Source: Clostridia bacterium (lineage in GTDB: Bacteria; Bacillota; Clostridia; Oscillospirales; Acutalibacteraceae). Taken from it: a stretch of 34,825 bases of DNA. The DNA lies in the NCBI GenBank assembly GCA_017473435.1, contig JAFULG010000052.1, forward strand, positions 1 to 34,825, given 5' to 3'. The translations under genes were made by a program, and so were the position numbers. Positions within the stretch are counted from its first letter, which is position 1. Every line of letters begins with the position of its first letter. The notes under the pieces were generated by a model. It made no database searches. It saw only the letters and a list, made by a program, of their open reading frames with translations, and was not told where the DNA came from. Below, in pieces: positions 4,962 to 34,825 of the stretch.

Positions 4962-6237
4962 TTTTGCCCACCTCCAGCTTCACCGTAATTTCATTGCTTT
5001 CAAGACAAGCGATATCCTCAAGCTTAACGGTTACGTTTTCCATTTCACCGGGAGCAAGCTTTCTCTTTTTCTTTCTGTAAAGCTCCTTATCACCGCTCGT
5101 AACAACAACATAGGTATCCTTGTAAATATCGGAAACGCGGAAATAAACCTTGACGTCCCTGTCTGTTGAACGGTTGATGTTCTGCGGAACAACATATCTG
5201 ACACCGTCTTTCGCTTTTACGTGTATATCCTTACCGTTTCTTGATTTTCCGCCTTTGCTCTTTCCCTTGGAAAGAATGTACTTTGCTGCGCCTTCACCGG
5301 CAATCTGACTTTCCTCGGTAACATAGTCAACAAGGTCATGCACCTGAAGAACATTACCGCAGGCGAAAACACCGCTGCGGCTTGTCTGACGGTATTCGTC
5401 AACAATAGCGCCGTTTGTTACCGGGTCAATAATAATTCCTGCCATACGGGTAAGCTCATTTTCAGGAATAAGTCCTACAGAAAGGAGCAATGTATCACAT
5501 TCAACAAACTGCTCTGTACCGGGTATAGGTCTTCTGTTTTCATCGACATTGGCAACAGTAACGCCTTCAAGTCTGCCTATACCGTGAGTTTTTATAACGG
5601 TACAGCTCAATTTAAGAGGAATACCGAGATCGTCAAGGCATTGCACAATGTTACGTGTAAGTCCGCCCGAATAAGGCATAAGCTCACATACCATCTCAAC
5701 CTTTGCACCCTCAAGAGTCATACGCCTTGCCATAATAAGTCCGATATCACCCGAGCCGAGGATAACTATTTTTTTGCCGGGCATATAGCCGTTGATATTC
5801 ACATACTTCTGGGCAGTACCTGCTGTCATAATGCCTGAAGCTCTTGAGCCGGGCATGTCAAGGGCACCTCTCGGTCTTTCGCGGCAGCCCATCGCAAGGA
5901 TGATAGCCGTAGCGTTTATGCGCAGCATTCCGTCAACATTGTTAGTTGCAATTACCACATTTCCGGGCTGAATTTCTGTTACCATTGTATCAACCTTAAC
6001 GTCGATATCTGTTTTTTCCAGCTCCTTGATAAAGCGGTAGGCATATTCGGGACCCGAAAGCTCCTGACCGAAATAATGAAGTCCGAAGCCCGTATGTATA
6101 CACTGTTCAAGTATACCGCCGAGAGTTTCCGATCTTTCAAGAATGATGATTTTTTTCACTCCGCATTCTTTTGCTTTAAGTGCCGCAGCCATACCTGCAG
6201 GGCCTCCGCCTACAACTACAAGATCATATTTCATCAT
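4954..6237 (-). CDS. FAD/NAD(P)-dependent oxidoreductase
   Basis: A 427-residue flavoprotein of the pyridine nucleotide-disulfide oxidoreductase class. The FAD-binding Rossmann motif VVVGGGPAGMAAA is at the N-terminus, and a second nucleotide-binding motif KKIVILGSGDIGLIMARR is near residue 155. GCRERPRGALDMPGSRASG resembles sarcosine oxidase alpha and related amine/polyol oxidase subunits. The FAD-site signature GVFACGNVLQVHDLVD is near residue 290. The C-terminal 90 residues are a Lys-rich extra domain. ATG-ATG at 6237/6234 are alternative starts. It lies 11 bases after the GlpA-like gene and overlaps DUF1667, so all three probably form one complex that passes electrons from a substrate such as glycerol-3-phosphate to a soluble carrier. 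The substrate is inferred. Confidence 0.85.
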   Translation of the reverse strand: MMKYDLVVVGGGPAGMAAALKAKECGVKKIIILERSETLGGILEQCIHTGFGLHYFGQELSGPEYAYRFIKELEKTDIDVKVDTMVTEIQPGNVVIATNNVDGMLRINATAIILAMGCRERPRGALDMPGSRASGIMTAGTAQKYVNINGYMPGKKIVILGSGDIGLIMARRMTLEGAKVEMVCELMPYSGGLTRNIVQCLDDLGIPLKLSCTVIKTHGIGRLEGVTVANVDENRRPIPGTEQFVECDTLLLSVGLIPENELTRMAGIIIDPVTNGAIVDEYRQTSRSGVFACGNVLQVHDLVDYVTEESQIAGEGAAKYILSKGKSKGGKSRNGKDIHVKAKDGVRYVVPQNINRSTDRDVKVYFRVSDIYKDTYVVVTSGDKELYRKKKRKLAPGEMENVTVKLEDIACLESNEITVKLEVGKNG

Positions 6238-6248
6238 CTGCCCTCACC

Positions 6249-7694
6249 TCACTTTGTTTTATCGAAAAGTATCTTTGAGCCGTTACCGTATTTGGTTACC
6301 TTGTTCATCGGGATATCCAGCTCCCTTGCAAGGATTTCAACAACCTTGCTTCCGCAGAAGCCACCCTGACATCTGCCCATTCCCGAGCGTGTTCTGCGTT
6401 TAACGGCATCAACATCTCTTGCACCGCAAGGCGCCTTGATTGCGTCAACAATCTCGCCCTCGGTAATACCCTCACAGCGGCAGATTATTCTGCCGTAGCG
6501 GCTATCCTTTTTAATAAGCTTTGCTCTTTCCTCAAGTGAAAGCTCATTAACTCTTACAGGGGCCGGTCTTGTCGCCTTGAAATCCTTTTTCTTCTCATAT
6601 TCAGGAGCAATTTCATTGAAAATTTTACCCACATATCTTGCAATGGCAGGAGCTGCCGTAAGTCCGGGTGACTCAACGCCCGCAACATTGACAAAGTGAT
6701 TGTTAACCTCACTCGGGGCAATGAGGAAATCGCTGTCCTCGCCTGCTCTGTGAGCGCGTATGCCTGAAAATGAGGTTATGGCATTTCTTGTTGTCATCTG
6801 CGGAATAACGCCCTTCACCGATTTCTTTACGGTATCAAGTCCGTCAATAGTCGTATCAAGATCAAGCTTACTGTCAAAGTCAAGATCAAGAGCCGTGGGA
6901 CCCATAAGCACATTACCGTGAACCGTGGGAGAAACAAGGATACCCTTACCCATAGGCGACGGACACTGGAAGAGGACGTGGTTGACCATTTTCTTTTCCG
7001 TTTTGTCAAGAAGATAGTATTCACCTTTACGGGGAATAAGCTTAATGGATGTATCGCCTATCATAGCGGCGATTTTATCAGAAAAAATTCCGGCACAGTT
7101 TACTACATATTTAGCCTTGATAACACCTGATGCCGTTGAAAGGTAAAACAAGCCGTCCTTATATTCAATGTCAAAAACACCGCTGTTTCGCTTAACTCTT
7201 GCACCGTTCATAATTGCGTTTTCAACAGCGGCAATAGCAAGCTCATAAGGACTTACTATACCTGCAGTAGGAGCCCACAACGCACCGATAGCCTCCTCGC
7301 TTATATAAGGCTCCATAATTCTGAGCCTTTCCTGACTGATGATTTCCATATTGGGAACACCGTTGTTGAAGCCTCTTTCGAAAAGCACCTCAAGAGTCTG
7401 CATATCATCCCAGTCATAAGCAACTACAAGTGAGCCGATATTTTTATAAGGCACGGAAAGCTTGTTGCAGTAATACGCCATAAGGGACGCACCCTGAACA
7501 TTAAGCTTAGCTTTAAGCGAGCCTACCTCAGCATCAAATCCGGCGTGAACTATTGCGCTGTTAGCCTTTGTTGCACCCATAGCAACGTCGCTGCATTTTT
7601 CCACCAGCATAAGATTGAGGTTATATTTACTCAGTTCTCTTGTAATCATCGCACCGACAACGCCCGCACCGATTACAACTACATCGTATTGCAT
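6249..7694 (-). CDS. GlpA-like FAD oxidoreductase with C-terminal BFD-like [2Fe-2S] domain
   Basis: A 481-residue protein. Residues 1-370 are a DAO-type FAD oxidoreductase (VVVIGAGVVGAMITRELSKY at the N-terminus; GIRAHRAGEDSDFLI and NVAGVESPGLTAAPAIA near the C-terminal side), the fold of anaerobic glycerol-3-phosphate dehydrogenase GlpA and L-2-hydroxyglutarate oxidase. The C-terminus carries a BFD-like cluster domain: IICRCEGITEGEI, then GRCQGGFC. It is the first gene of the flavoprotein operon, with GGAGGAG seven bases before the ATG. Glycerol-3-phosphate is the most likely substrate by analogy, but related Clostridial proteins are poorly characterised, so I give no gene symbol. Confidence 0.87.
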   Translation of the reverse strand: MQYDVVVIGAGVVGAMITRELSKYNLNLMLVEKCSDVAMGATKANSAIVHAGFDAEVGSLKAKLNVQGASLMAYYCNKLSVPYKNIGSLVVAYDWDDMQTLEVLFERGFNNGVPNMEIISQERLRIMEPYISEEAIGALWAPTAGIVSPYELAIAAVENAIMNGARVKRNSGVFDIEYKDGLFYLSTASGVIKAKYVVNCAGIFSDKIAAMIGDTSIKLIPRKGEYYLLDKTEKKMVNHVLFQCPSPMGKGILVSPTVHGNVLMGPTALDLDFDSKLDLDTTIDGLDTVKKSVKGVIPQMTTRNAITSFSGIRAHRAGEDSDFLIAPSEVNNHFVNVAGVESPGLTAAPAIARYVGKIFNEIAPEYEKKKDFKATRPAPVRVNELSLEERAKLIKKDSRYGRIICRCEGITEGEIVDAIKAPCGARDVDAVKRRTRSGMGRCQGGFCGSKVVEILARELDIPMNKVTKYGNGSKILFDKTK

Positions 7695-7727
7695 ATTAAC
7701 TCCTCCGTTTCACATTGTTTTTTTATA

Positions 7728-7756
7728 ATAATACCACCCCTTGTAGTGATAGTCAA
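7728..7756 (-). promoter_or_regulatory. Sigma-A promoter of the flavoprotein operon
   Basis: Minus-strand TTGACT (7756-7751), 17-base spacer, TATTAT (7733-7728), 33 bases before the start codon at 7694. It is transcribed away from the lepA promoter 100 bases to the right. Confidence 0.75.
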
Positions 7757-7856
7757 CAAAAACATTGTACATTAATCACAAAAAATGTTTATTTTATATT
7801 TTTTTCTGCTCAAACAGCTCTCTCGAAATCACTGTTTGCGTTTTTTGCTTTTTCCC

Positions 7857-7885
7857 TTGATTAAAGGTTTATTTTATGCTAAAAT
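7857..7885 (+). promoter_or_regulatory. Sigma-A promoter of lepA
   Basis: TTGATT (7857-7862), 17-base spacer, TAAAAT (7880-7885). The transcript would start near 7892, downstream of the in-frame ATG at 7876. This supports the TTG start at 7924 for lepA. Confidence 0.7.
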
Positions 7886-7923
7886 ATATTAATATTTTTA
7901 TACCCCATATACGAGGTGATATT

Positions 7924-9741
7924 TTGGCTAAGAAGAAAGAAAATATAAGAAACTTCTCTATCATTGCCCATATTGACCACGGTAAGAGTACCCTTGCTGA
8001 CAGACTTCTTGAGCTTACCGACTCCGTTGCAAAGCGTGATATGTCCGCACAGATACTTGACGATATGGACCTTGAAAGGGAAAGAGGAATTACAATAAAG
8101 GCTCACGCTGTAAAGCTCGACTACAAGGCCGCTGACGGTGAAATTTATGAGCTTAATCTCATAGATACTCCGGGTCACGTTGACTTCAACTACGAGGTTT
8201 CCCGTTCTCTCGCCGCCTGCGAGGGTGCAATTCTCATCATTGACGCGTCCCAGGGTATTGAGGCTCAGACCCTTGCTAACACTTACCTTGCTCTTGACCA
8301 CGACCTCGAGCTTGTTCCCGTTATCAACAAAATCGACCTGCCTGCCGCAGAGCCTGACAGAGTTGCCGCAGAGGTTGAAGAAATCATCGGTCTTGACTGC
8401 ACCGAGGCTCCGAGAGTTTCAGCTAAAACAGGTGAAAATGTTGAAGCCGTGCTTGAAAAGATAGTACGTGATATTCCCGCTCCCTCAGACTGTGACGATA
8501 ACGCTCCCCTTAAGGCACTTATCTTCGACTCTGTTTACGATAACTACAAGGGTGTTATAGTTTACGTAAGAGTTATGCAGGGTACACTTAAAGCAGGCGA
8601 AACTATGAAAATGATGGCTACGGGTGCAGAGTTCAATGTTGTTGAGGTCGGCTATATGAGAGCTACCGGGCTTGAAAAATGCGATCAGCTTTCCGCAGGT
8701 GAGGTTGGCTACATAACAGCTTCAATAAAGACCGTCCGTGACGCAAAGGTCGGCGACACCGTTACAAAGCTTGAAAATCAGGCAAGTTCTCCCCTTCCCG
8801 GCTACCGTAAGGTTAATCCTATGGTTTTCTGCGGTGTTTATCCTGCTGACGGTGCAGACTATGAGGCTCTTCGTGATGCCCTTGAAAAGCTTCAGCTCAA
8901 CGATGCTTCACTTTCCTACGAGCCCGAAACCTCAGGCGCTCTCGGCTTCGGATTCCGATGCGGCTTCCTCGGTCTACTCCACCTTGAAATTATTCAGGAA
9001 AGACTCGAAAGAGAATATAATCTTGACCTTGTTACAACAGTCCCTTCTGTTGTTTACAAAATTCACCTTACTGACGGTGAGATTGTTGAAATCGATAATC
9101 CCACAAACTATCCCGACCAGGCAAAAATCGACTATTGCGAGGAGCCTATCACCAACGCTCACATCTATGCTCCCAGCGACTATGTCGGCACAATTATGGA
9201 CCTTTGTCAGGACAGACGCGGTGTATTCAAGGATATGAAATATATCACCACCGACCGTGTTGATATTCACTATGAGCTTCCTCTTAACGAAATCATTTAC
9301 GATTTCTTCGATGCCCTTAAATCAAGAACGAGAGGCTACGCCTCCTTTGACTATGAAATTTTCGAATACAGACGCTCAAGCATGCAGAAGGTTGATGTCC
9401 TTCTCAACGGCGATGTTATTGATGCTCTTTCCTTTATTATTCATACAGAAAAAGCAATGAGCAGAGCAAGAAAGATTGCGGAAAAGCTTAAGGAGCACAT
9501 TCCCAGACAGATGTTCGAAATTCCCATTCAGGTTGCCATCGGCAGTAAGGTTATTGCAAGAGAAACCGTAAAGGCTATGAGAAAAGACGTGCTTGCAAAG
9601 TGCTACGGCGGTGACATTACACGTAAAAAGAAGCTTCTTGAAAAACAGAAGGAAGGTAAAAAGCGTATGCGTCAGTTCGGTACGGTTGAGGTGCCTCAGG
9701 AGGCGTTTATGGCTGTGCTTAAGCTTGACGATACACAGTAA
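7924..9741 (+). CDS. lepA: Elongation factor 4 (back-translocating GTPase LepA)
   Basis: LepA/EF4 is a ribosome-associated GTPase related to EF-G, implicated in back-translocation and in 30S biogenesis. The protein shows the G1 motif AHIDHGKST, the G3 segment DTPGHVDF, the G4 segment NKIDLP and the LepA-specific C-terminal domain ([21 protein letters not shown]). I choose the TTG at 7924 ([12 protein letters not shown]). It has GAGGTG five bases upstream and gives 605 residues, typical of the family. An in-frame ATG at 7876 would add 16 hydrophobic residues unlike LepA and lies inside the promoter. It is followed by hemW, the neighbour order also found in Bacillus. Confidence 0.96.
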
Positions 9742-26685: not shown

Positions 26686-27054
26686 TCATTTTCTGTCCTT
26701 CGGCCTTGCGAACACCGATGCCACAAGTCCGCATATAATCGCCGCCATTGTGCCCACCGAAGCCGCCGAAAGCGGTCCGCTCAGAGCTCCCAGCAAGCCC
26801 TCCTCATCAACCGCCTTTTTCGTTTCCCTCGCGAGGGTATAACCAAAGCCCGTCAGCGGCACCGTTGCACCTGCTCCGCCGAAATCAGCAATAGACTCGT
26901 ACACACCTAAAGCACCGAGGATAACTCCCACAACAACAAACATCACAAGTATTTTTGCCGGTGTAAGCTTTGTGTAGTCGATTAACAGCTGACCTATAAC
27001 ACATATAACTCCCCCGACAACAAACGCCTTAAGCAGCATTATAATAACATCCAT
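26686..27054 (-). CDS. spoVAE: Stage V sporulation protein AE
   Basis: SpoVAE belongs to the SpoVA complex of the spore inner membrane, which moves Ca-dipicolinate in during sporulation and out during germination. The 122-residue protein is highly hydrophobic with about four membrane helices and the family segments GGVICVIGQLLIDYTKLTPAKILV, GVYESIADFGGAGATVPLTGFG and GGVxx-like GLLGALSGPLSAASVG. AAGGAG lies 8 bases before the ATG at 27054. The ATG overlaps the TGA of the small upstream gene (TGATG), so translation is coupled. It is last in the operon. Confidence 0.93.
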   Translation of the reverse strand: MDVIIMLLKAFVVGGVICVIGQLLIDYTKLTPAKILVMFVVVGVILGALGVYESIADFGGAGATVPLTGFGYTLARETKKAVDEEGLLGALSGPLSAASVGTMAAIICGLVASVFARPKDRK

Positions 27055-27227
27055 CAGATCAGCTCCTTAATGAAACTACAGCCACACTTACCCGTACCGA
27101 GAAGCTTAATTCCAAGCACAGCCGCAATAACAACAGCTGAAACACACAGTACCTTTTTGGTGTAATAAAGGTACTTACTGCATTTGCCGATATAGTAAAG
27201 ACACTTAAGATGTTTTGCATATTTCAT
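27054..27227 (-). CDS. Small Cys-rich membrane protein inside the spoVA operon
   Basis: A 57-residue protein I do not recognise. It has a Tyr/Lys/Cys-rich N-terminus (MKYAKHLKCLYYIGKCSKYL), one hydrophobic helix (about 27-46, VLCVSAVVIAAVLGIKLLG) and a KCGC segment near the C-terminus; cysteines at 9, 16, 28, 48 and 50. The ATG at 27227 has AGGAG 8 bases upstream; a GTG at 27236 is closer to the ribosome binding site than usual. It lies 14 bases after spoVAD and overlaps the spoVAE start, so it is a genuine operon member. Forespore expression with SpoVA is inferred from position only. Confidence 0.7.
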   Translation of the reverse strand: MKYAKHLKCLYYIGKCSKYLYYTKKVLCVSAVVIAAVLGIKLLGTGKCGCSFIKELI

Positions 27228-27241
27228 ATAATTCACTCCTG

Positions 27242-27643
27242 TCAGATAACAAAATGTAAAAGATGAGCAATTCCCGGGATGCTCTCCCCTTCCCGTGAGG
27301 AAACAGGCGACATCAATGCACCCGTGGCAACAAAAAGCAGATTTTTAAGCTTTCCCTTACGCATCTCGTCAAGTATATAACTGCACAGCACACTTCCGCA
27401 GCAGCCGCACCCCGAGCCTCCCGAATGAACATCCTGCTTTTTACGGTCGAAAATCATCAGTCCGCAATCCTGATGCACCGCTGAAATATCGAGGTTATCC
27501 TCCTTTTGCAAAAGCTCACGGAGAAGACGGCTGCCCACAAGTCCGAGATCACCTGTGAGAATCATATCATAGTCCGAGGGCAGTGTGTTCGTGTCACGGA
27601 GAAAATCGGAGATGGTTTTGCGGGCGGAAGGGGTAAATGTCAA
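27242..27643 (-). pseudogene. spoVAD: Stage V sporulation protein AD, C-terminal part only (interrupted)
   Basis: SpoVAD is the soluble thiolase-like SpoVA subunit that binds dipicolinic acid; the full protein is about 340 residues. Only the last about 130 are here: YDMILTGDLGLVGSRLLREL, DISAVHQDCGLMIFD, SGGSGCGCCGSVL, NLLFVATGALMSPVS and ESIPGIAHLLHF all align with the end of Bacillus SpoVAD. The fragment begins near TFTPSARKTI, matching the MAPAAADTI region of the full protein at about residue 206. The reading frame is intact to its stop, but upstream the DNA turns AT-rich, meets a stop within ten codons and has no ribosome binding site. A mobile element therefore splits the gene here; the N-terminal part is not in the window. 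Confidence 0.85.
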
Positions 27644-27861
27644 GAGAAAACCATAAAATTTTTCAAAACCTCAAAACCCTTGATTTTACTGGATTTGTGG
27701 CACTTCAATTATGGGTGCAGCTATGGGGTGGTTGGTGTTAAACATAGACCATATGGCAATTTTATTGTAAGTTTTTCACAAAAAGATACGCATAAATTTG
27801 ACATCAAATTTTGTAGGCGAAAATTATTATCTTAAACAACAAATATTTTTCTTGACAAATC

Positions 27862-27892
27862 AAAAAACTGCCATTATAAAAATAGCAGTTTT
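27862..27892 (-). terminator. Terminator after the dprA-like gene
   Basis: Minus strand: 12-bp stem with one G-U (AAAACTGCTATT / AATGGCAGTTTT), 5-base loop, ending in a T run. It lies 9 bases past the stop codon and ends the ATPase-RecQ-DprA transcript before the spoVAD junction. Confidence 0.85.
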
Positions 27893-27900
27893 CGATATAA

Positions 27901-28878
27901 TTAATCAAAGAAACTTAATTGAACACCTACATTTTTTTTAACTTCACTTTGAATTGATTTGACTTTTGACTTGTCAAATTCAATTTTGGTTATAACTCCA
28001 CTCCAATTTTCATCTATCGGAATTGCACCCATTTTTATAAGTTCCAAATTTCCGGAATATTCGATATTGCGACAATACTCGGTACACCAACCCTTTTTTA
28101 GGTTTTCGATTGCTCCGTTCCAAGTACCACCTTTGTTTTTATCAGTTTTTATGACAATGGTTGCATCACTTTGAGAGTAGATGTATTTATTTCTCATCAT
28201 AGCAAATCCTACATTAAATCCCGCGGTTGGGATTGAAGCAGATAATAACAACAAATTACCTCTATTAATAGATTTCACTATATCTGCCTTTCGCATTTTT
28301 TGCATCATAGAATCAGCTAAGTATTCTATAACAAAGCCATTATTATCTAATGCTGTTTGTGTGGATACTGTATCAATTCCCTTGGCACCACCCGTAACGA
28401 TGCCATAACCCTTTTGCATTACTTTTGATACGGTGTTTTGAGTAAAACCAATATCATCGTCATTAACAGTTCGTGAACCTACAAAACCAACAGACTGCTT
28501 ATTTAAAAGTTCAATGTTACCTGCGGTGTAGAAAATTGGTGGACAGTTATTACCTAATTTTTGTTTTAACAACCTTGGGTAATTATTTTCGGCTCGCGTT
28601 GTAATCATAATTCCCATATTTTCATATTTGGAAATCTCAAAGCTTATACTGCCGCTTCTTTCCAATAGTCGCAAATATCTATTTGCCATCATTTCATCTA
28701 CTTCTAACTTTTCTAAAAAATCAGATTTACTGAAAATCAACAAATCATTAGGCTCCAACCCTTTAGAAAACAAACGCGAAGCAAGTTCTCCCCATTCCCT
28801 AGGTTCTAATGGTTTAATATCTGCATCGACACACAAATGACTGCAAAAGATCACTATTGCTTCTGAATTTTTATTCAT
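27901..28878 (-). CDS. DprA/Smf-like DNA-processing protein
   Basis: A 325-residue protein of the DprA/SLOG Rossmann family. In competent bacteria DprA binds incoming single-stranded DNA and loads RecA. The core is at residues about 95-290: PPIFYTAGNIELLN, SVGFVGSRTVND, GYGIVTGGAKGIDTVSTQTAL and MRNKYIYSQSDATIVIKTDKNKGGTW, matching DprA in order but diverged at the usual GAxxRN and phosphate-binding residues. The N-terminal 90 residues could be a helical domain. The C-terminus VQLSFFD resembles a sliding-clamp binding motif. AAGGAG overlaps the end of the RecQ gene and the ATG lies two bases after its stop, so the two are tightly coupled. It is not the housekeeping dprA by context. Confidence 0.85.
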   Translation of the reverse strand: MNKNSEAIVIFCSHLCVDADIKPLEPREWGELASRLFSKGLEPNDLLIFSKSDFLEKLEVDEMMANRYLRLLERSGSISFEISKYENMGIMITTRAENNYPRLLKQKLGNNCPPIFYTAGNIELLNKQSVGFVGSRTVNDDDIGFTQNTVSKVMQKGYGIVTGGAKGIDTVSTQTALDNNGFVIEYLADSMMQKMRKADIVKSINRGNLLLLSASIPTAGFNVGFAMMRNKYIYSQSDATIVIKTDKNKGGTWNGAIENLKKGWCTEYCRNIEYSGNLELIKMGAIPIDENWSGVITKIEFDKSKVKSIQSEVKKNVGVQLSFFD

Positions 28879-28880
28879 AA

Positions 28881-30929
28881 CTACTCCTTACTGCTGCTAT
28901 CAGCTAATGCAAATGGAACAACCTGTTCACAACCGGCTTGCATAAGTAAATAACCACAAACTGTTAATGTCCATTTGGAATCAACAACATCATCAACCAA
29001 AATCAGTTTTTGAGGTATATCGTTACACGATTTAACAGAAAAAGAATTTAATGCATTATTGCACTGATAAGTACTGTTTTCCATTTCCTTTTGTGGACTT
29101 GCATCTGATTTTTCTAATAAATCCACATATTTTAACCCCAATTTATTCGCCAATCTCTCAGCAAAATCTGACACAAGATTGCTTCTTAGCGAAGATACAT
29201 TGGTTATAGCATATCCGGTTAAATCTATGCGTTCTTTCAAAACATTTGCCGCTTTAGCGACTAATTCATCAGAAAATTGTTCTTTATTTGAATACTTGCC
29301 TTCTTTAACCATTTGTCCATATCCGGGGTCTCCATATTTGGAAAGACAAATTCCTTTTTCCATAATATGCTCTATTTTCTTACCATTAGGCCATCTTTTT
29401 CTTGGCTCGATTTCCAAAATCAAAGCATTTATATATTCGGCCGCTTTTTCCCTTGACGCTAACGATATTGATGATCCATCAATTATATCCTTACCGGTAC
29501 AATTAGAGCATTTACCGCAATTTTCAGCAGTTTTATCATCTAAGCAATTAACACAGAACTTGCTATAACAATCGTTTGTTTCTATAAGCTGCTTCATCTG
29601 TAAAAGCTCCGCTCTGCGAATTCCTGTAACTTCGTTATAATGTTTTTCATCATAATTGAATGGTTTTGGTGTTCTGTAATATAATCTGTCTTTTGTGATA
29701 AAACCTTCACTCTGCAAGAATGACAACGCCTTTTCAATTCTGCCTGTTCTTGCATTCACATCATTAATAATTTCTACTTTCTTGCTTCCGTCACGACTTT
29801 CAATACTGCTGATAACTTTTTCTGCTTCATATCTTGTAGGAAATGCGGTATCAATAAAATAGTTATTAATATCTTCATCCTCTTTACCGGACATTAAAAA
29901 GATATATGCATCATCTATATTTCTTCCGGCTCTGCCGATTTGTTGATAATATGCTACAATATTGGATGGAGATTGATAATGAATAACAAAAGATATATCA
30001 TCTTTATCATATCCCATACCAAGCTTAACCGTCGCAACAATTGCTTTGATTTTGTTGTTTTTAAAATCATCCAAAGCTACTTCGTTGGTATGCTCCATAT
30101 CCTGGCTTTTTGAATAATATGACATAGCCGATATATTATTTTTACTTAAAAAATCAGCTAAATAATCACAGTCTCTCTGAGTTAAGCAATATATAATACC
30201 GGTACCGGGAATTTTATTTAAATTCTCCAAAAGCCATGCATATCTATCGACCTTATTCTGCAAATCAAGGACTTGCATATGCAAAGATTTTCTTGATAAA
30301 GGTCCGCGAGATACAAAAACATCCTCGTTAAACTGCTTTTTTAAATCTTTTATTACTCGATCATTTGCAGTTGCGGTTGTTGCTAAAACTGCGACATTAG
30401 AAGATAATGTGCTTATAATTTTTCCAATTTTACCATATTCTAAACGAAAATCATGACCCCAATCGGAAATACAATGTGCTTCATCAACAACAAATAATCC
30501 GATATTGAACTGATGCAATCTACTTTGCACTTCTTCATTAAAAAGTGTCTCAGGTGTAATAAAAATCAAATCTAGTTTGTCAGTGGCCAAATCATCTAAA
30601 ATTTCACTTCGCCTTTCTTTAACCGTACTATTTAATACATCACAACGAATGCCAAGTTTTTTAGCCATTTCTGCCTGATTTTCCATAAGCACCAAAAGAG
30701 GACTAATTACCATTGTAAAGCCACGGTTTCTTTTTCTGAACATTTTAGTACACATAAAATACACAAGGCTTTTTCCCCAACCGGTTCTTTGTACTACTAA
30801 TGTTCTTCTGTTTGTCATCGTAGCTTCAATAGCTTCATATTGACCATCACGGAAATTAGCATCTTCTCCGTACACAGATTTTAATATTTTGTATGATTCC
30901 TTATAAATTTCAGGATTTTTTATTTCCAT
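28881..30929 (-). CDS. RecQ-family helicase fused to a ComF-like phosphoribosyltransferase domain
   Basis: A 682-residue protein. Residues 20-350 are a RecQ superfamily 2 helicase: QRTGWGKS (Walker A, 47-54), DEAH (149-152), TTAT (184-187) and QQIGRAGR (motif VI, 329-336). Cysteines 454, 459, 462, 471, 474 and 477 form a zinc module (CGKCSNC). Instead of a normal HRDC end, residues about 565-682 are a type I phosphoribosyltransferase-like domain: LRSNLVSDFAERLANKLGL and the PRPP-loop-like LILVDDVVDSKWT (642-654). Helicase, phosphoribosyltransferase and DprA are also the parts of the competence set ComFA/ComFC/DprA. The gene follows the ATPase by 24 bases and precedes the dprA-like gene. A role in defence or in processing foreign DNA is inferred. 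Confidence 0.88.
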   Translation of the reverse strand: MEIKNPEIYKESYKILKSVYGEDANFRDGQYEAIEATMTNRRTLVVQRTGWGKSLVYFMCTKMFRKRNRGFTMVISPLLVLMENQAEMAKKLGIRCDVLNSTVKERRSEILDDLATDKLDLIFITPETLFNEEVQSRLHQFNIGLFVVDEAHCISDWGHDFRLEYGKIGKIISTLSSNVAVLATTATANDRVIKDLKKQFNEDVFVSRGPLSRKSLHMQVLDLQNKVDRYAWLLENLNKIPGTGIIYCLTQRDCDYLADFLSKNNISAMSYYSKSQDMEHTNEVALDDFKNNKIKAIVATVKLGMGYDKDDISFVIHYQSPSNIVAYYQQIGRAGRNIDDAYIFLMSGKEDEDINNYFIDTAFPTRYEAEKVISSIESRDGSKKVEIINDVNARTGRIEKALSFLQSEGFITKDRLYYRTPKPFNYDEKHYNEVTGIRRAELLQMKQLIETNDCYSKFCVNCLDDKTAENCGKCSNCTGKDIIDGSSISLASREKAAEYINALILEIEPRKRWPNGKKIEHIMEKGICLSKYGDPGYGQMVKEGKYSNKEQFSDELVAKAANVLKERIDLTGYAITNVSSLRSNLVSDFAERLANKLGLKYVDLLEKSDASPQKEMENSTYQCNNALNSFSVKSCNDIPQKLILVDDVVDSKWTLTVCGYLLMQAGCEQVVPFALADSSSKE

Positions 30930-30953
30930 AATATTTTAACCTCTGCTTTTAAT

Positions 30954-32150
30954 TTACCAACTATCACGCAAAAGGAAATCTGCAATATGTGTAATTTCAA
31001 TTCCGTTATCGTTACCGATTGCAAGTGTATCTCTGCAAACGACATATTTGTGATAGTGGTCTTTGATTTCCATAAGGTTGTCTGTTTCTCTTGTTGATTC
31101 AGTCGGCAGTTCAACGCAAACCTGAACATAAATCTTTTCATCTCTGCGAACACCGATGAAATCTATTTCTTTAGTACCGTTTTTACCGATATAGACATCA
31201 TAACCTCTGCGTTTCATTTCAAGAAAAACAATGTTCTCAAAAACAGCTGACAACATTTTTCTGTCAAAGCCTTGTAAGCTATACTTTATTGAAATATCGG
31301 AAAGATAATACTTTTCCTGGGTTTTCAGGATTGCTTTACCTTGCAAATCATATCTTTTGCAAGGATAGATGATAAATGCTTCGCTGAGCCATTTGAGATA
31401 ATTATATATCGTTTCAACAGAAAGACTTCTGTTTTCACTTTTAAGAAATTTTACTATTGAAGAAGCAGAGAACGTCAGACCTACATTTTCAATAATATAT
31501 CTTACAACTCTGTCAAACAGATCTTTGTTCCTTATCTTGTGTCTTTTAGAAATATCTCTCGTTATTACAGAAGCATAAATCCCCTCAACAACCTGATATG
31601 CTGATTTTGTATCAAAATCGCTTATGCCCACAATAGGAAAGCCACCATACTGCACATATTCATCAAAAGCTTCTCGAGCATTTTTAATATCCTTGTTTTT
31701 AAAAGTCAGATATTCCTTAAAAGAAAGAGTGTAAACAGGAATCAGAACATATCTGCCTGTTAAATATGTTGATATTTCACTTGACATCAGCTTTGAGTTT
31801 GAGCCTGTAACATATATATCAACATCAAAGTCTTCCATAAGAGAGTTTACAGTCTTTTCCCAACCCACAATTTCCTGAAGCTCGTCAAGGAAAAGATAGC
31901 ACCTTCCTTTTTCTTTTATGGCATCTTTTAAATCGGTATACATCTTTTTTGCCTTAAAGTCGTCATAATCAGGATTGTTATATTTTCTTTCAATAATGTT
32001 ATCGGGAGAAACACCTTTATTTTTGATTTCCTGTACTAACATTTCAAAAATTGTTGATTTACCGCATCGACGGACACCGGCAAGAATTTTCACAAGCGGT
32101 GCATCTATAAAAGGAGTAATTGCATTAATATAATCCGGTCTTAAAATCAT
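30954..32150 (-). CDS. AAA_14/DUF4143 ATPase
   Basis: A 398-residue protein of the AAA-ATPase/DUF4143 family. Walker A is GVRRCGKST at residues 25-33, Walker B is YLFLDELQEI near residue 92, and TGSNSKLMSSEISTYLTGR follows as sensor region. The C-terminal DUF4143 half has YYLSDISIKYSLQG and FENIVFLEMKRRGYDVYIG...KEIDFI, which resembles a restriction-endonuclease-like fold. The function of the family is unclear; members are common on mobile DNA. The ATG at 32150 has GGAGGT 8 bases upstream. Its own promoter lies just before it. It could be an independent passenger or the first gene of the RecQ-DprA operon; the 24-base gap favours co-transcription. Confidence 0.85.
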   Translation of the reverse strand: MILRPDYINAITPFIDAPLVKILAGVRRCGKSTIFEMLVQEIKNKGVSPDNIIERKYNNPDYDDFKAKKMYTDLKDAIKEKGRCYLFLDELQEIVGWEKTVNSLMEDFDVDIYVTGSNSKLMSSEISTYLTGRYVLIPVYTLSFKEYLTFKNKDIKNAREAFDEYVQYGGFPIVGISDFDTKSAYQVVEGIYASVITRDISKRHKIRNKDLFDRVVRYIIENVGLTFSASSIVKFLKSENRSLSVETIYNYLKWLSEAFIIYPCKRYDLQGKAILKTQEKYYLSDISIKYSLQGFDRKMLSAVFENIVFLEMKRRGYDVYIGKNGTKEIDFIGVRRDEKIYVQVCVELPTESTRETDNLMEIKDHYHKYVVCRDTLAIGNDNGIEITHIADFLLRDSW

Positions 32151-32172
32151 TCTGACCACCTCCGTTACCTAA

Positions 32173-32201
32173 AGTATATCGAAAAACTATGCTAAAGTCA
32201 A
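32173..32201 (-). promoter_or_regulatory. Sigma-A promoter of the ATPase-RecQ-DprA operon
   Basis: Minus-strand TTGACT (32201-32196), 17-base spacer, TATACT (32178-32173), 22 bases before the ATG. Around the -35, AAACTAT and ATAGTTT form an inverted repeat (7-base arms, 10 apart), a possible operator. Confidence 0.75.
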
Positions 32202-32265
32202 TAGTTTATACTTCTAAACCGATAAAACTTTGTAATATTATATATTTTTTCGGGTTTAGATAATG

Positions 32266-32616
32266 TTATTCTTTTTCTTTATCTTCTCCCCAAATCCACG
32301 TTTCATCAACTTTTTTCTTGCTCGGTCGCGCACGTTTTCTGATTTTTTGTTTCTCGAACAAAGCTTTGTAATCGGGTTGAGGTTCAGGTATTAAAATATC
32401 TAAATTTTCTGAAAGTCCGATTTCATTCAAAATCTTAATCAGATTTGAAAGCTTCGTATCATATCCCATTTCTGTACGGGCAACAGTCTTAAGAGAAAGT
32501 CCGCATCTTTGTGCAAGCTCTGATTGTGTAATATTCAAGGAAATCCTGTACTGCTGAATACGGTTTCCCAATTCCACTAATATTGATTTTTCATCATTAT
32601 AATTTAAAATCTTCAT
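32266..32616 (-). CDS. XRE-family regulator, HipB-like
   Basis: A 116-residue protein starting MKILNYNDEKS. Residues about 15-72 form a helix-turn-helix of the Cro/CI type (GNRIQQYRISLNITQSELAQ, RCGLSLKTVARTEMG). The tail PDYKALFEKQKIRKRARPSKKK resembles HipB-type antitoxins, yet no hipA follows. The start at 32616 has GGAGG 4-5 bases upstream; the frame continues upstream to 32640 but with no ribosome binding site. The promoter in front is embedded in palindromes, so it likely represses itself and perhaps the downstream operon. Confidence 0.82.
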   Translation of the reverse strand: MKILNYNDEKSILVELGNRIQQYRISLNITQSELAQRCGLSLKTVARTEMGYDTKLSNLIKILNEIGLSENLDILIPEPQPDYKALFEKQKIRKRARPSKKKVDETWIWGEDKEKE

Positions 32617-32627
32617 AGAGCCTCCAT

Positions 32628-32696
32628 AATAACAAGTCAAATTTGTACTATTATAATATCAAATCCGCTTTAATAAGTCAAGTTTGACTTGTTATT
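32628..32696 (-). promoter_or_regulatory. Promoter and palindromic operator of the XRE regulator
   Basis: Minus strand: TTGACT (32681-32676), 17 bases, TATTAT (32658-32653). The 14-base sequence AATAACAAGTCAAA (32628-32641) and its exact complement TTTGACTTGTTATT (32683-32696) flank the promoter. A third arm AAGTCAA (32675-32681) makes the palindrome AAGTCAA-GT-TTGACTT that contains the -35 box. This suggests three binding sites for autorepression. Confidence 0.8.
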
Positions 32697-32760
32697 TTTC
32701 TTTTATAAATGCACAAAAAATATTTTTCTCAAAATACAGCTATATACCCTATTGATAATT

Positions 32761-34458
32761 TTACGCAGACTTTTTATCTGCCTCTTCAACGATTTCTTTA
32801 TTCATTTCAATATAGTTAACCACATTTTCATAAGCATCGTTGAACTTGAATTTAATGGTAATGTTGCCGCCCTCATGAACGAGAATTTCATCAATAAGTT
32901 CAACCACCATAGGCCTGTTAAGTGTTTCAATATTGCCGTACTGCTTGAAGTGTGAAATAAACTCATTCTCGCTATTCAGACCTTGTGCGTACTCTTCTGC
33001 TGTTTTTGTAAGACTTTGGATTGTGCTGTCTATTGACTCGATTTTCTCGGTAAGGTTGGCTTTTAACTGCATATATTCTTCCCTTGTAATTACGCCTTGC
33101 TTCCAGTCAGGATATAAATCAAGAGACATTTTTATGCACTTCTCACGCTCGGCAGATTGAGTTTTAATCATCTTCTGAAGATGTGTTGACTCCTTTTTTC
33201 GCTTACTGCTCTGATTGATTATTTCAAGAATTTCATCAAATTCAATGGCCGTATCAATCATTTTCTGCAGGGTAACAAGTACTGCAGTTTCAAGCTTATC
33301 AATACGGATTGTGTGATTGGTGCAGGCGTCCTTGCTCATTTTTCTTGATGTCATACATCTGTAATAGCGGTAGGTACCGTATGAATGTTTGTTGGTTTTT
33401 TTGTTCATAATACGGTGACAATCAGCACAGCGTACAAGTCCCGAAAACAAATCAACCTCTTTTTTGACAGGCGAAGAACGGATATTCTTTCTGAAAAGTG
33501 ACTGAGCCTTATTGAAGGTATCCTTGTCAATAATGGCTTCGTGTGTGTTTTCAACAACAATCCATTCGTCTTTCGGTATGGCTCTGCATTGCTTGATTTT
33601 GTAGCTGATTGTCGTGTTCTTGCCCTGCACCATATTACCGATATACATTTCGTTCTGCAGGATTCTTCGCACAGAGCTGTCGTGCCACAAGCCGTCGTTA
33701 CTCTTTCCCATAGGATGACGGTAGTTAAGCCCTTTCAGTTTTTTATGCATTGACGGGTTGGGTATGCCCTCATCATTCAAGGCTTTTGCAATGCCGATAA
33801 TGCTTTGTCCTGCAATAAATCTTTCAAAAATCATACGAATAACGGGTGCAGTTTCTTCATCAATAATAAGCTGATGATGGTCATTAGGATCCTTGAGATA
33901 GCCATAGGTTGGAAACGAGCCGATAAACTTGCCCTGTGCTCTGTTTACATTAAGAGTACCTCGTACATTTACAGAAGTTGTCGCCGCAAGGCTTTCGTTG
34001 ATAACATTGGTAACACCTACAGAAATGCATTGAGTTGCCGCATTCATACTGTTTGAAGCGGTATCAATTCCGTTGTTAAGAGCAATAAAACGCACCTTCA
34101 GACGCACAAAAACGTTATCAAGATAATAGCCTGCATCTGTATAGTTTCTGCCAAAACGTGACAAGTCTTTTACAATTACGCAATCCACTTTTTTCGCATA
34201 AACATCTTCCATCATTCTGGTAAACTCAGGTCGTTCAAAGCTTGTACCACTCCAACCGTAATCAACATAAAAATCATGCAACTCAATATCAGGATGAAGC
34301 TTGAGATATTCTTTTAAAATTTCACGCTGTGAAGTAATTGAATAACTTTCAGCTTTGTCACCGTCTTCTTTAGAAAGACGAATATAAAGAGCAGCCTTCC
34401 AAGACCTGATTGCTTGGTTGGGCTGCCCAAAATAATCTGCATATTTAGTATTTGTCAT
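32761..34458 (-). CDS. Large serine recombinase (site-specific integrase)
   Basis: A 565-residue large serine recombinase that would integrate and excise the element. The resolvase domain (about 20-165) has the catalytic Ser29 in ALYIRLSKED, DYGWSGTSFERPEF and VIVKDLSRFGRNY. The recombinase domain follows (GKFIGSFPTYGYLKDPNDHH, EGIPNPS, SSVRRILQNEMYIGN). A zinc ribbon (GLVRCADCHRIM, YRYYRCMTSRKMSKDAC) and a coiled coil (about 430-510) complete the usual layout. In the linker, NESLAATTSVNVRGTLNVNR differs from the common DISKKVRSA form. The ATG at 34458 has GGAGGTAGG upstream; a TTG at 34473 lies in that site. It is full-length and apparently intact. Confidence 0.95.
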   Translation of the reverse strand: MTNTKYADYFGQPNQAIRSWKAALYIRLSKEDGDKAESYSITSQREILKEYLKLHPDIELHDFYVDYGWSGTSFERPEFTRMMEDVYAKKVDCVIVKDLSRFGRNYTDAGYYLDNVFVRLKVRFIALNNGIDTASNSMNAATQCISVGVTNVINESLAATTSVNVRGTLNVNRAQGKFIGSFPTYGYLKDPNDHHQLIIDEETAPVIRMIFERFIAGQSIIGIAKALNDEGIPNPSMHKKLKGLNYRHPMGKSNDGLWHDSSVRRILQNEMYIGNMVQGKNTTISYKIKQCRAIPKDEWIVVENTHEAIIDKDTFNKAQSLFRKNIRSSPVKKEVDLFSGLVRCADCHRIMNKKTNKHSYGTYRYYRCMTSRKMSKDACTNHTIRIDKLETAVLVTLQKMIDTAIEFDEILEIINQSSKRKKESTHLQKMIKTQSAEREKCIKMSLDLYPDWKQGVITREEYMQLKANLTEKIESIDSTIQSLTKTAEEYAQGLNSENEFISHFKQYGNIETLNRPMVVELIDEILVHEGGNITIKFKFNDAYENVVNYIEMNKEIVEEADKKSA

Positions 34459-34516
34459 ACAGCCTACCTCCAATTAAAATCAACCGGCGGTATGCTTTTT
34501 ATCTCTACACAATGAG

Positions 34517-34545
34517 ATTTTAACACAATCACCGCTTAATTTCAA
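34517..34545 (-). promoter_or_regulatory. Candidate promoter of the serine recombinase
   Basis: Minus-strand TTGAAA (34545-34540), 17-base spacer, TAAAAT (34522-34517), 59 bases before the ATG. The -35 box overlaps the stop codon of the DUF6870-like gene. Confidence 0.55.
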
Positions 34546-34793
34546 TGGTAATTATTCCTGATAACCCTCTCAATCGCATCAGAAAATTCACATTTTCCTC
34601 CGAACTCAACTTTTACCACAACGTCCCCTACTTTAAAAAGATACGGGTTCCGAATCTGCCGAAAGAAGCTGACCATCTTGTCATTTACGGGCAAAGCATT
34701 GTCAAACGAAACTTCGCACAAGTCAGCAAGGTTGGCTTCATCACACCCGCAAATCGGAACCTCACTCAGCTTTTGCAATTCATCTTTCGTCAC
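34542..34793 (-). CDS. Small DUF6870-like protein
   Basis: An 83-residue protein beginning MTKDELQKLSEVPICGCDEANLADL, with the central phrase FFRQIRNPYLFKVGDVVVKVEF. It resembles DUF6870 proteins, short proteins of unknown role found beside recombinases and on conjugative or integrative elements of Clostridia. The start is GTG at 34793 with AGGTGG upstream. It precedes the recombinase by 83 bases on the same strand. Family assignment is from memory of the pattern. Confidence 0.65.
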   Translation of the reverse strand: MTKDELQKLSEVPICGCDEANLADLCEVSFDNALPVNDKMVSFFRQIRNPYLFKVGDVVVKVEFGGKCEFSDAIERVIRNNYH

Positions 34794-34825
34794 AACACCA
34801 CCTGCCCTTAAATGTATTTTTACCC

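Follow-up and report, generated by a model that had tools for sequence, protein, structure and literature searches.

Sporulation genes are interrupted by excisable elements in several spore-forming bacteria, the named cases being skin in sigK, SPbeta in spsM, vfbin in spoVFB, gin in gerE and yin in yabG, of which sigK and gerE are described as acting in the mother cell (PMC5595907, PMC10747680). Because the mother cell dies, excision there costs an intervening element nothing. The remaining interrupted genes named above also act in the mother cell. The present analysis concerns a 34,825-nucleotide stretch of a member of the Acutalibacteraceae (Clostridia; contig JAFULG010000052.1, hereafter the window), in which a recombinase-bearing element splits spoVAD. 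The SpoVA proteins are reported to be forespore products under the control of SigG (PMC5629000), spoVAD is listed among the SigG-dependent genes of a clostridium (PMC3738446), and SpoVAD is reported to bind dipicolinic acid (DPA) and to be required for its uptake (PMC4959285). The original prediction, made from the window alone, had called a forespore gene an odd target for such an element, and the first two of these reports bear this out.

The split was established in the window and in its own draft genome (G000; 2.56 Mb in 91 contigs, 97% complete, with the window as contig C42; G-numbers denote genomes, L-numbers recombinase loci and g-numbers genera). As had been proposed, spoVAD is divided by a recombinase-bearing element: an open 129-codon remnant, lacking a start codon with a Shine-Dalgarno sequence at the proper distance, ends at the dinucleotide CC (27630-27631), G+C drops from 0.445 to 0.35 on passing from spoVAD into the element, matching the AT-rich DNA described earlier, and the element encodes a 570-aa large serine recombinase (LSR) that has resolvase, recombinase, zinc-ribbon and DUF4368 domains. 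The missing 5' part, which was to be looked for on the minus strand as a set check, was found in the same genome on contig C56 (approximately 30948-31573, minus strand), where PF07451 positions 3-207 match C56:30935-31555 (-), the final 13 bases of the match being element sequence. Its orientation is that expected if C42 continues into C56, and with adjacency of the contig ends assumed the element measures at least 38 kb (7.2 kb on C42 and 30.9 kb on C56). A PF07451 profile search of the draft contigs returned no third or whole spoVAD, and the two halves rejoin in frame (NMGAAMA/PSARKT) to give an open frame of 331 aa, as the original prediction required. Each of the three outcomes that had been named as refuting the prediction was looked for, and none was encountered. 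The downstream genes are undamaged, also as proposed, with spoVAEB whole (PF03862 positions 2-116 of 117). The cut point falls within the SpoVAD chain of structures 3lma and 3lm6.

In order to establish how widely the insertion occurs, related genomes were examined for the same break. The same split (profile positions ~200-207) was present in 12 of 147 relatives, 129 of which have spoVAD; this count includes G142, in which the same codon shows a different junction and no recombinase lies in the 18 kb read on the 3' side. Furthermore, at least 35 genomes in an even sample of 398 from the family (346 with spoVAD) are split at the same codon, with the 5' junction (attL) or the 3' junction (attR) read in each. 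This corresponds to approximately 10% of spoVAD-bearing family genomes and is a lower bound, as the site list is incomplete and follow-up was confined to genomes whose best scores were weak. The split also occurs in other families of the order (G132 and G134) and in the isolate Oscillibacter valericigenes An890, whose 3' junction was read; 2 of 61 genomes in the genus of An890 are split, namely An890 itself and G544 (attL read). In five cases a single contig holds both halves, the inserts measuring 6.6 kb (L067), 11.8 kb (G032), 13.6 kb (G400), 19.4 kb (G544) and 34 kb (G005), and element sizes range from 6.6 kb to at least 38 kb. No full-length spoVAD match was found in the split genomes, which are drafts (G275, with both states, was not counted as split). 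Chance is excluded because the same split with like arms recurs in dozens of genomes. Left out of the split count were G333 (contigs that overlap by 20 bp in the order of an unsplit gene), G210 (uninterrupted beyond the site), G371 (a contig ending at the core) and G275 (a mixture), together with genes cut elsewhere by contig ends; two unsplit genes have other breaks (G010 and G061), and G203 and G298, with sites at contig ends, were judged by position only. A separate observation concerns bin G271, which holds two different spoVAD 3' halves (on C63 and C40), each beside an element arm, and one 5' half.

Junction comparison placed the break at the MAPAA codons, where it had been predicted, and yielded the short core CC in the Pro codon. 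In G000 the 5' junction reads ...ATGGGCGCGGCAATGGCA-CC-TGTAGATGTTAAAATAGAACCAT and the 3' junction ATGGTTTTCTCTTGACATTTACC-CC-TTCCGCCCGC. Across hosts, element sequence precedes CC at the 3' junction and follows it at the 5' junction, the remainder being host gene. The CC of the MAPAA Pro codon is taken to be the crossover, and excision would then return the host's own codon. All 25 genomes with both halves (25/25) give open rejoined frames of 328-342 aa, joined at NMGAAMA/P. A second junction type was found in g21, g116 and G142, in which the arm ahead of the core itself reads ATGGC[A/T]CC. An inverted attL-like sequence inside the element was matched in 15 of the 35 right ends, 54-79 bp from the core, and is perhaps a decoy or regulatory site for the recombinase. 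A small peptide after attL was considered as a common feature and dropped, its length not being conserved.

The recombinase gene was found in 17 of the 35 3'-side stretches, always in the same direction as spoVAD and at a distance of 0.1-5.3 kb to the core; the G378 gene has this direction too but sits next to attL, and the G163 gene is seemingly more than 40 kb from the 3' half. A quick-search tree was built from 42 of the 44 recombinase loci (without L076 and L079) and 7 others. In this tree 27 recombinase rows formed one clade with support of 100, and 25 of the 27 are at spoVAD, representing 24 different sequences, as L061 and G132 are the same genome. Two of these rows, L068 and L069, were placed at spoVAD indirectly, e.g. 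from the presence, in the genome concerned, of a 5' half broken off at position 205. The clade rows not placed there are L060, at a contig end, and L071 (13281 in G489), a 95% identical recombinase element situated off-site, upstream of a transporter-like gene (by eye), in a genome with intact spoVAD. L075, which is at spoVAD, falls outside the clade among recombinases linked to spoIVB, a placement that carries a long-branch warning. Synonymous divergence (dS) of the recombinases was 0.5-0.82 in seven of nine pairs, with 0.02 and 1.8 in the remaining two, and was below the spoVAD dS in 9/9 pairs (lowest spoVAD value 0.93, often saturated). The lower divergence of the recombinase points to movement between hosts, and we infer that the element probably does move in this way; the best reading is that some elements of the family are mobilizable. 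Vertical inheritance of an insertion was looked for in genera g116 and g21, and no old insertion could be proved: the element proteins of G273 and G346 (g116) are closer than their spoVAD and the G163 element is more distant, and in g21 the recombinase has diverged to a similar degree as spoVAD, but ORF (open reading frame) lengths near the end differ. Among IMG/VR viral contigs 20 recombinases were found, none with more than 40% identity.

Taken as such, the insertion biology is practically beyond doubt. The interpretation that we favour, as probable on balance, is a family of integrative elements that would use one spoVAD codon as attachment site (attB) and would be reversible by precise excision. 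The serine recombinase would cross over at CC in the MAPAA Pro codon, integration would leave two silent spoVAD halves, growth should not need SpoVAD, and precise excision would restore the gene without a scar. The element thereby appears to sit harmlessly in a gene unneeded during growth, and at least part of the sporulating cells would seem to regain spoVAD through excision. That excision restores function in some cells falls just on the probable side. For the spore to benefit, excision would have to take place in the forespore or before division, and timing to the forespore is considered doubtful. As SpoVAD acts in the forespore, an excised circle would have to travel within the spore and integrate again once it has germinated, or else be lost.

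The state of the gene halves bears on this interpretation. All 35 3' halves (G142 and both G271 halves included) and all 27 5' halves read (G371 and G142 included) are open, each of them having 100 or more codons of open frame counted from the core, and 0 of 62 are decayed; the undecayed state noted originally for the window fragment therefore holds in every host read. Unique amino-acid changes in split halves versus the nearest intact relative numbered 129 versus 136 for the 5' halves (12 of 27 usable) and 171 versus 225 for the 3' halves (24 of 35 usable); intact control triplets gave 463 versus 556 (42 triplets) and 329 versus 372 (46 triplets). By these relative-rate counts the split halves show no relaxation relative to intact relatives. 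SpoIVA, a single marker gene, was detected in 37 of the 41 genomes with a confirmed split, those where it was missed being 69-86% complete, as well as in 12/12 intact genomes and 1/6 without spoVAD. Retention of SpoIVA together with unrelaxed open halves suggests that split genomes look like spore formers. The single-contig genome G039 has SpoIVA and no PF07451 match. The 5' half reaches a stop 8-56 codons beyond the core in 25 of 27 cases, the other two running off their contigs, and a start codon preceded by a suitably spaced Shine-Dalgarno sequence is absent from all 35 3' halves. Given the early stop and the lack of a ribosome site, SpoVAD should be off while the element is inserted.

The alternative that survives best is plain disruption of a safe-haven gene with no developmental excision, which we regard as a real possibility while leaning against it. 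Such insertions could persist if the gene is unused in growth, if DPA-poor spores are sufficient in the gut, or if young insertions are purged or replaced. Site-specific elements with serine recombinases are reported to disrupt dispensable genes (PMC5704250) and to have conserved target genes in common (PMC10083194), and spores with disrupted spoVAC are reported still to form, being heat-sensitive, in work in which the need for SpoVAD was untested (PMC4959285). The recombinases are less diverged than spoVAD, so the insertions can be young, and the search for excised circles described below detected no excision. However, none of the 62 halves is decayed, though the search favours recognisable halves; there is no excess of protein change in them; SpoIVA is retained in nearly all split genomes; the site is occupied in about a tenth of spoVAD-bearing genomes (35/346); and most of a diverse recombinase clade is found at one target. 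Separate production of the two halves as polypeptides that assemble into working SpoVAD is very improbable: both halves are open and unrelaxed, and an in-frame ATG lies just before the core in seven 3' halves (G142, G163, G273, G346, G448, G238 and G429), but 0/35 have the start codon and Shine-Dalgarno sequence required and the cut is inside a chain of known structure (3lma/3lm6). An assembly or binning artefact is more improbable still: many of the genomes are metagenome bins and most splits spread over two contigs, which speaks for it, but both halves share one contig in the five cases listed above and the isolate An890 is also split.

Several observations weigh against reversible, developmentally useful excision. 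No attP (excised circle) was found in the 398 genome assemblies; a sole pattern match in G263 was rejected as a promoter-like chance match. The recombinase promoter is SigA-like and vegetative-looking (by eye), and a SigG-like motif was found upstream of spoVAD in 1 of 47 cases, which is not above shuffles (mean 1.95). The SigG scan was possibly misplaced, as spoVAC seemingly lies just upstream of spoVAD in G005 and G032 (by eye). A terminator-like hairpin in some attL arms (by eye) opposes read-through from spoVAD, and 18 of the 35 3'-side stretches, many short and some of 7-18 kb, yielded no recombinase. Furthermore, the insertions may be of recent date, which would be enough to account for undecayed halves; young, polymorphic, disabling insertions would likewise look undecayed, particularly in a search that favours recognisable halves. 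In favour of excision, one contig of G275 stops right after CCTG and its last 141 bp are identical to part of another contig, on which spoVAD is uninterrupted; in G371 one contig ends at the core. These contig ends appear to fit empty and filled sites in one sample, and a strain mixture would give the same pattern; the intact contig of G275 lacks the matching break on the attR side expected from a full mixture, and when G275 was searched with the site only those two contigs matched well and the filled branch was not seen. With regard to control, the SigA-like promoter upstream of the recombinase overlaps a dyad resembling the att arms (by eye), which suggests self-regulation of the recombinase. 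The Tn4451 recombinase is reported to integrate and excise without a directionality factor (PMC5704250), making low-level excision in any cell plausible.

Other sporulation and germination genes were found split near related recombinases. The gene spoIVB (Peptidase_S55) is split in 4/4 rabbit-gut genomes, G552-G555 (L072, L073, L074 and L077), into parts covering positions 2-194 and ~189-210 near a tandem recombinase pair that is 40-42% identical to the window recombinase. In 4/4 the last residues of the 5' part are ...VTHV and the first of the 3' part THVF[I/V]ND, with the frame unchanged between them; in G554 both are on one contig, 65.7 kb apart. No whole spoIVB was found in those four genomes, and two control genomes have a whole copy. 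Like spoVAD, spoIVB is a forespore gene. Among the matches listed from the openly licensed literature, there was no report linking spoIVB with an intervening recombinase or prophage. In Lachnospiraceae, isolates included, more distant tandem recombinases lie next to the 3' part of a germination protease of the csp type (13 genomes, G556-G568; loci L078, L080-L087, L089, L092-L094). At least 6 of the 13 also have a 5' part, which ends at position 226, the 3' parts starting from ~223. Two isolates have both parts on one contig, at a distance of 21.5 kb in Blautia massiliensis GD8 and of 19.7 kb in B. schinkii MSK.6.26; 11 of the 13 genomes hold another csp match at ~632-1099. A broader idea, which we rate as unlikely and even a little below forespore timing, is an element lineage specialised on genes of the forming spore. 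Such elements would keep spoVAD, and by way of related recombinases spoIVB, switched off in growth, leave the forespore (germline) chromosome, ride as a circle inside the spore and insert again at outgrowth, in a reversible hop-out/hop-in cycle coupled to the life cycle of the host, which would be paid with defence cargo.

The features of the window are collected below, followed by the gene content of the elements.

Features of the window at the split spoVAD locus (positions in the 34,825-nucleotide stretch)
Feature	Position	Strand	Details
Undamaged downstream genes	26686..27236	-	Small ORF 27054-27236 (without Pfam match) and spoVAEB 26686-27054
spoVAD 3' half	27242..27631	-	129 codons (Pro of MAP/SARKT to end) and stop; PF07451 201-326, E 5.6e-51
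Putative crossover dinucleotide CC	27630..27631	-	Common to attL and attR; junction comparison
Element arm of attR, ATGGTTTTCTCTTGACATTTACC	27632..27654	-	Kept, with variants, in most 3' junctions read
Left portion of inserted element	27632..34825	.	Runs off contig; other end is C56 1 to ~30947
Inverted attL-like sequence inside element	27708..27756	+	spoVAD-like ATGGGTGCAGCTATGG then arm-like stretch
PsyrA-like (DprA-type) cargo	27901..28878	-	PADLOC PsyrA 1.1e-93
PsyrT-like RecQ-family helicase cargo	28881..30929	-	PADLOC PsyrT 1e-234
AAA_14/DUF4143 ATPase, candidate defence gene PDC-S01	30954..32159	-	Pfam and PADLOC
Helix-turn-helix regulator	32266..32640	-	PF01381
Large serine recombinase, 570 aa, co-oriented with spoVAD	32761..34473	-	PF00239, PF07508, PF13408, PF14287; belongs to the clade found mainly at spoVAD
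DUF6870 protein beside recombinase gene	34542..34823	-	PF21757; runs off contig

The defence cargo of G000 (window 27901-32159 and C56 8099-17286) comprises PsyrTA, PDC-S01 and type III-D CRISPR genes. Cargo varies among elements, with an AbiL-like gene in G005; the 6.6-kb element of L067 holds an argC-like gene and other biosynthetic cargo (5190-9437, minus strand, by eye). Mobilization genes were examined in the copies of G032, G005 and G000. The first two have MobC-, relaxase- and DUF6870-like genes in common at 76-96% identity, with relaxase and MobC recognised by Pfam matches in G032 and by likeness in G005. The G032 relaxase belongs to the MobA/VirD2 Pfam family, its nearest NCBIfam model being MobP-type, far below the cut-off. 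In G000 the relaxase gene is truncated (C56 3405-3833; 142 aa versus 487 aa in G032), and with it this element may not be self-mobilising. The DUF6870 gene adjoins the recombinase in G032 and L072 as well. The 5' half is followed by a TnpV gene in G032 and, by likeness, in G027, and by a DUF6809 gene in G000, with similar ORFs in g116 (by eye); TnpV, DUF6809 and DUF6870 are candidates only for directionality factors. No phage structural family was found among the element proteins scanned with Pfam, a subset of ORFs.

Comparison with Tn4451 begins with a gene in common: Tn4451 carries tnpV, and a TnpV gene is present in spoVAD elements (G032). Further likeness to the Tn4451 type, as reported in PMC5704250, lies in the serine recombinase, the 2-bp core and an element's own relaxase, and the window recombinase supplies the own integrase that characterises an integrative mobilizable element. 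In contrast to Tn4451, the spoVAD elements are highly specific for one codon and carry defence cargo, no resistance gene was found among the element proteins scanned, and the relaxase is MobA/VirD2, nearest to MobP-type though far below the cut-off, rather than the MobV reported for Tn4451 (PMC5704250). LSR elements described in magnesium chelatase/ATP-dependent protease and prolyl isomerase genes (PMC10083194) are similar in that diverse recombinases have one conserved-gene site; unlike those, the gene targeted here serves sporulation, and its own genome yielded no second copy. Genes of the spoVA group have been reported as cargo of mobile elements (PMC6907783), and among the openly licensed papers listed, no title or abstract opening reported an element inserted in spoVAD.

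The insertion is common and occurs in a cultured isolate, making the question it raises directly testable: a spoVA target breaks the mother-cell rule, and either the element survives germline excision or the host tolerates lost DPA uptake. Furthermore, split spoVAD may be scored as absent when sporulation is predicted from gut metagenomes. As in the intervening elements of PMC5595907 and PMC10747680, a sporulation gene is split by an element with a site-specific recombinase, rejoining at a short core restores the frame, and no intact copy was found; gin is described there as a non-phage element, and the spoVAD element proteins scanned with Pfam included no phage structural family. The locus departs from those systems in that spoVAD is not among the genes they name and encodes a protein of the forespore, the cell that passes on its chromosome, so that, if excision is real, the spoVAD case would differ from the known ones. 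It departs from them also in that some spoVAD copies look mobilizable and hosts of different genera and families carry the same insertion.

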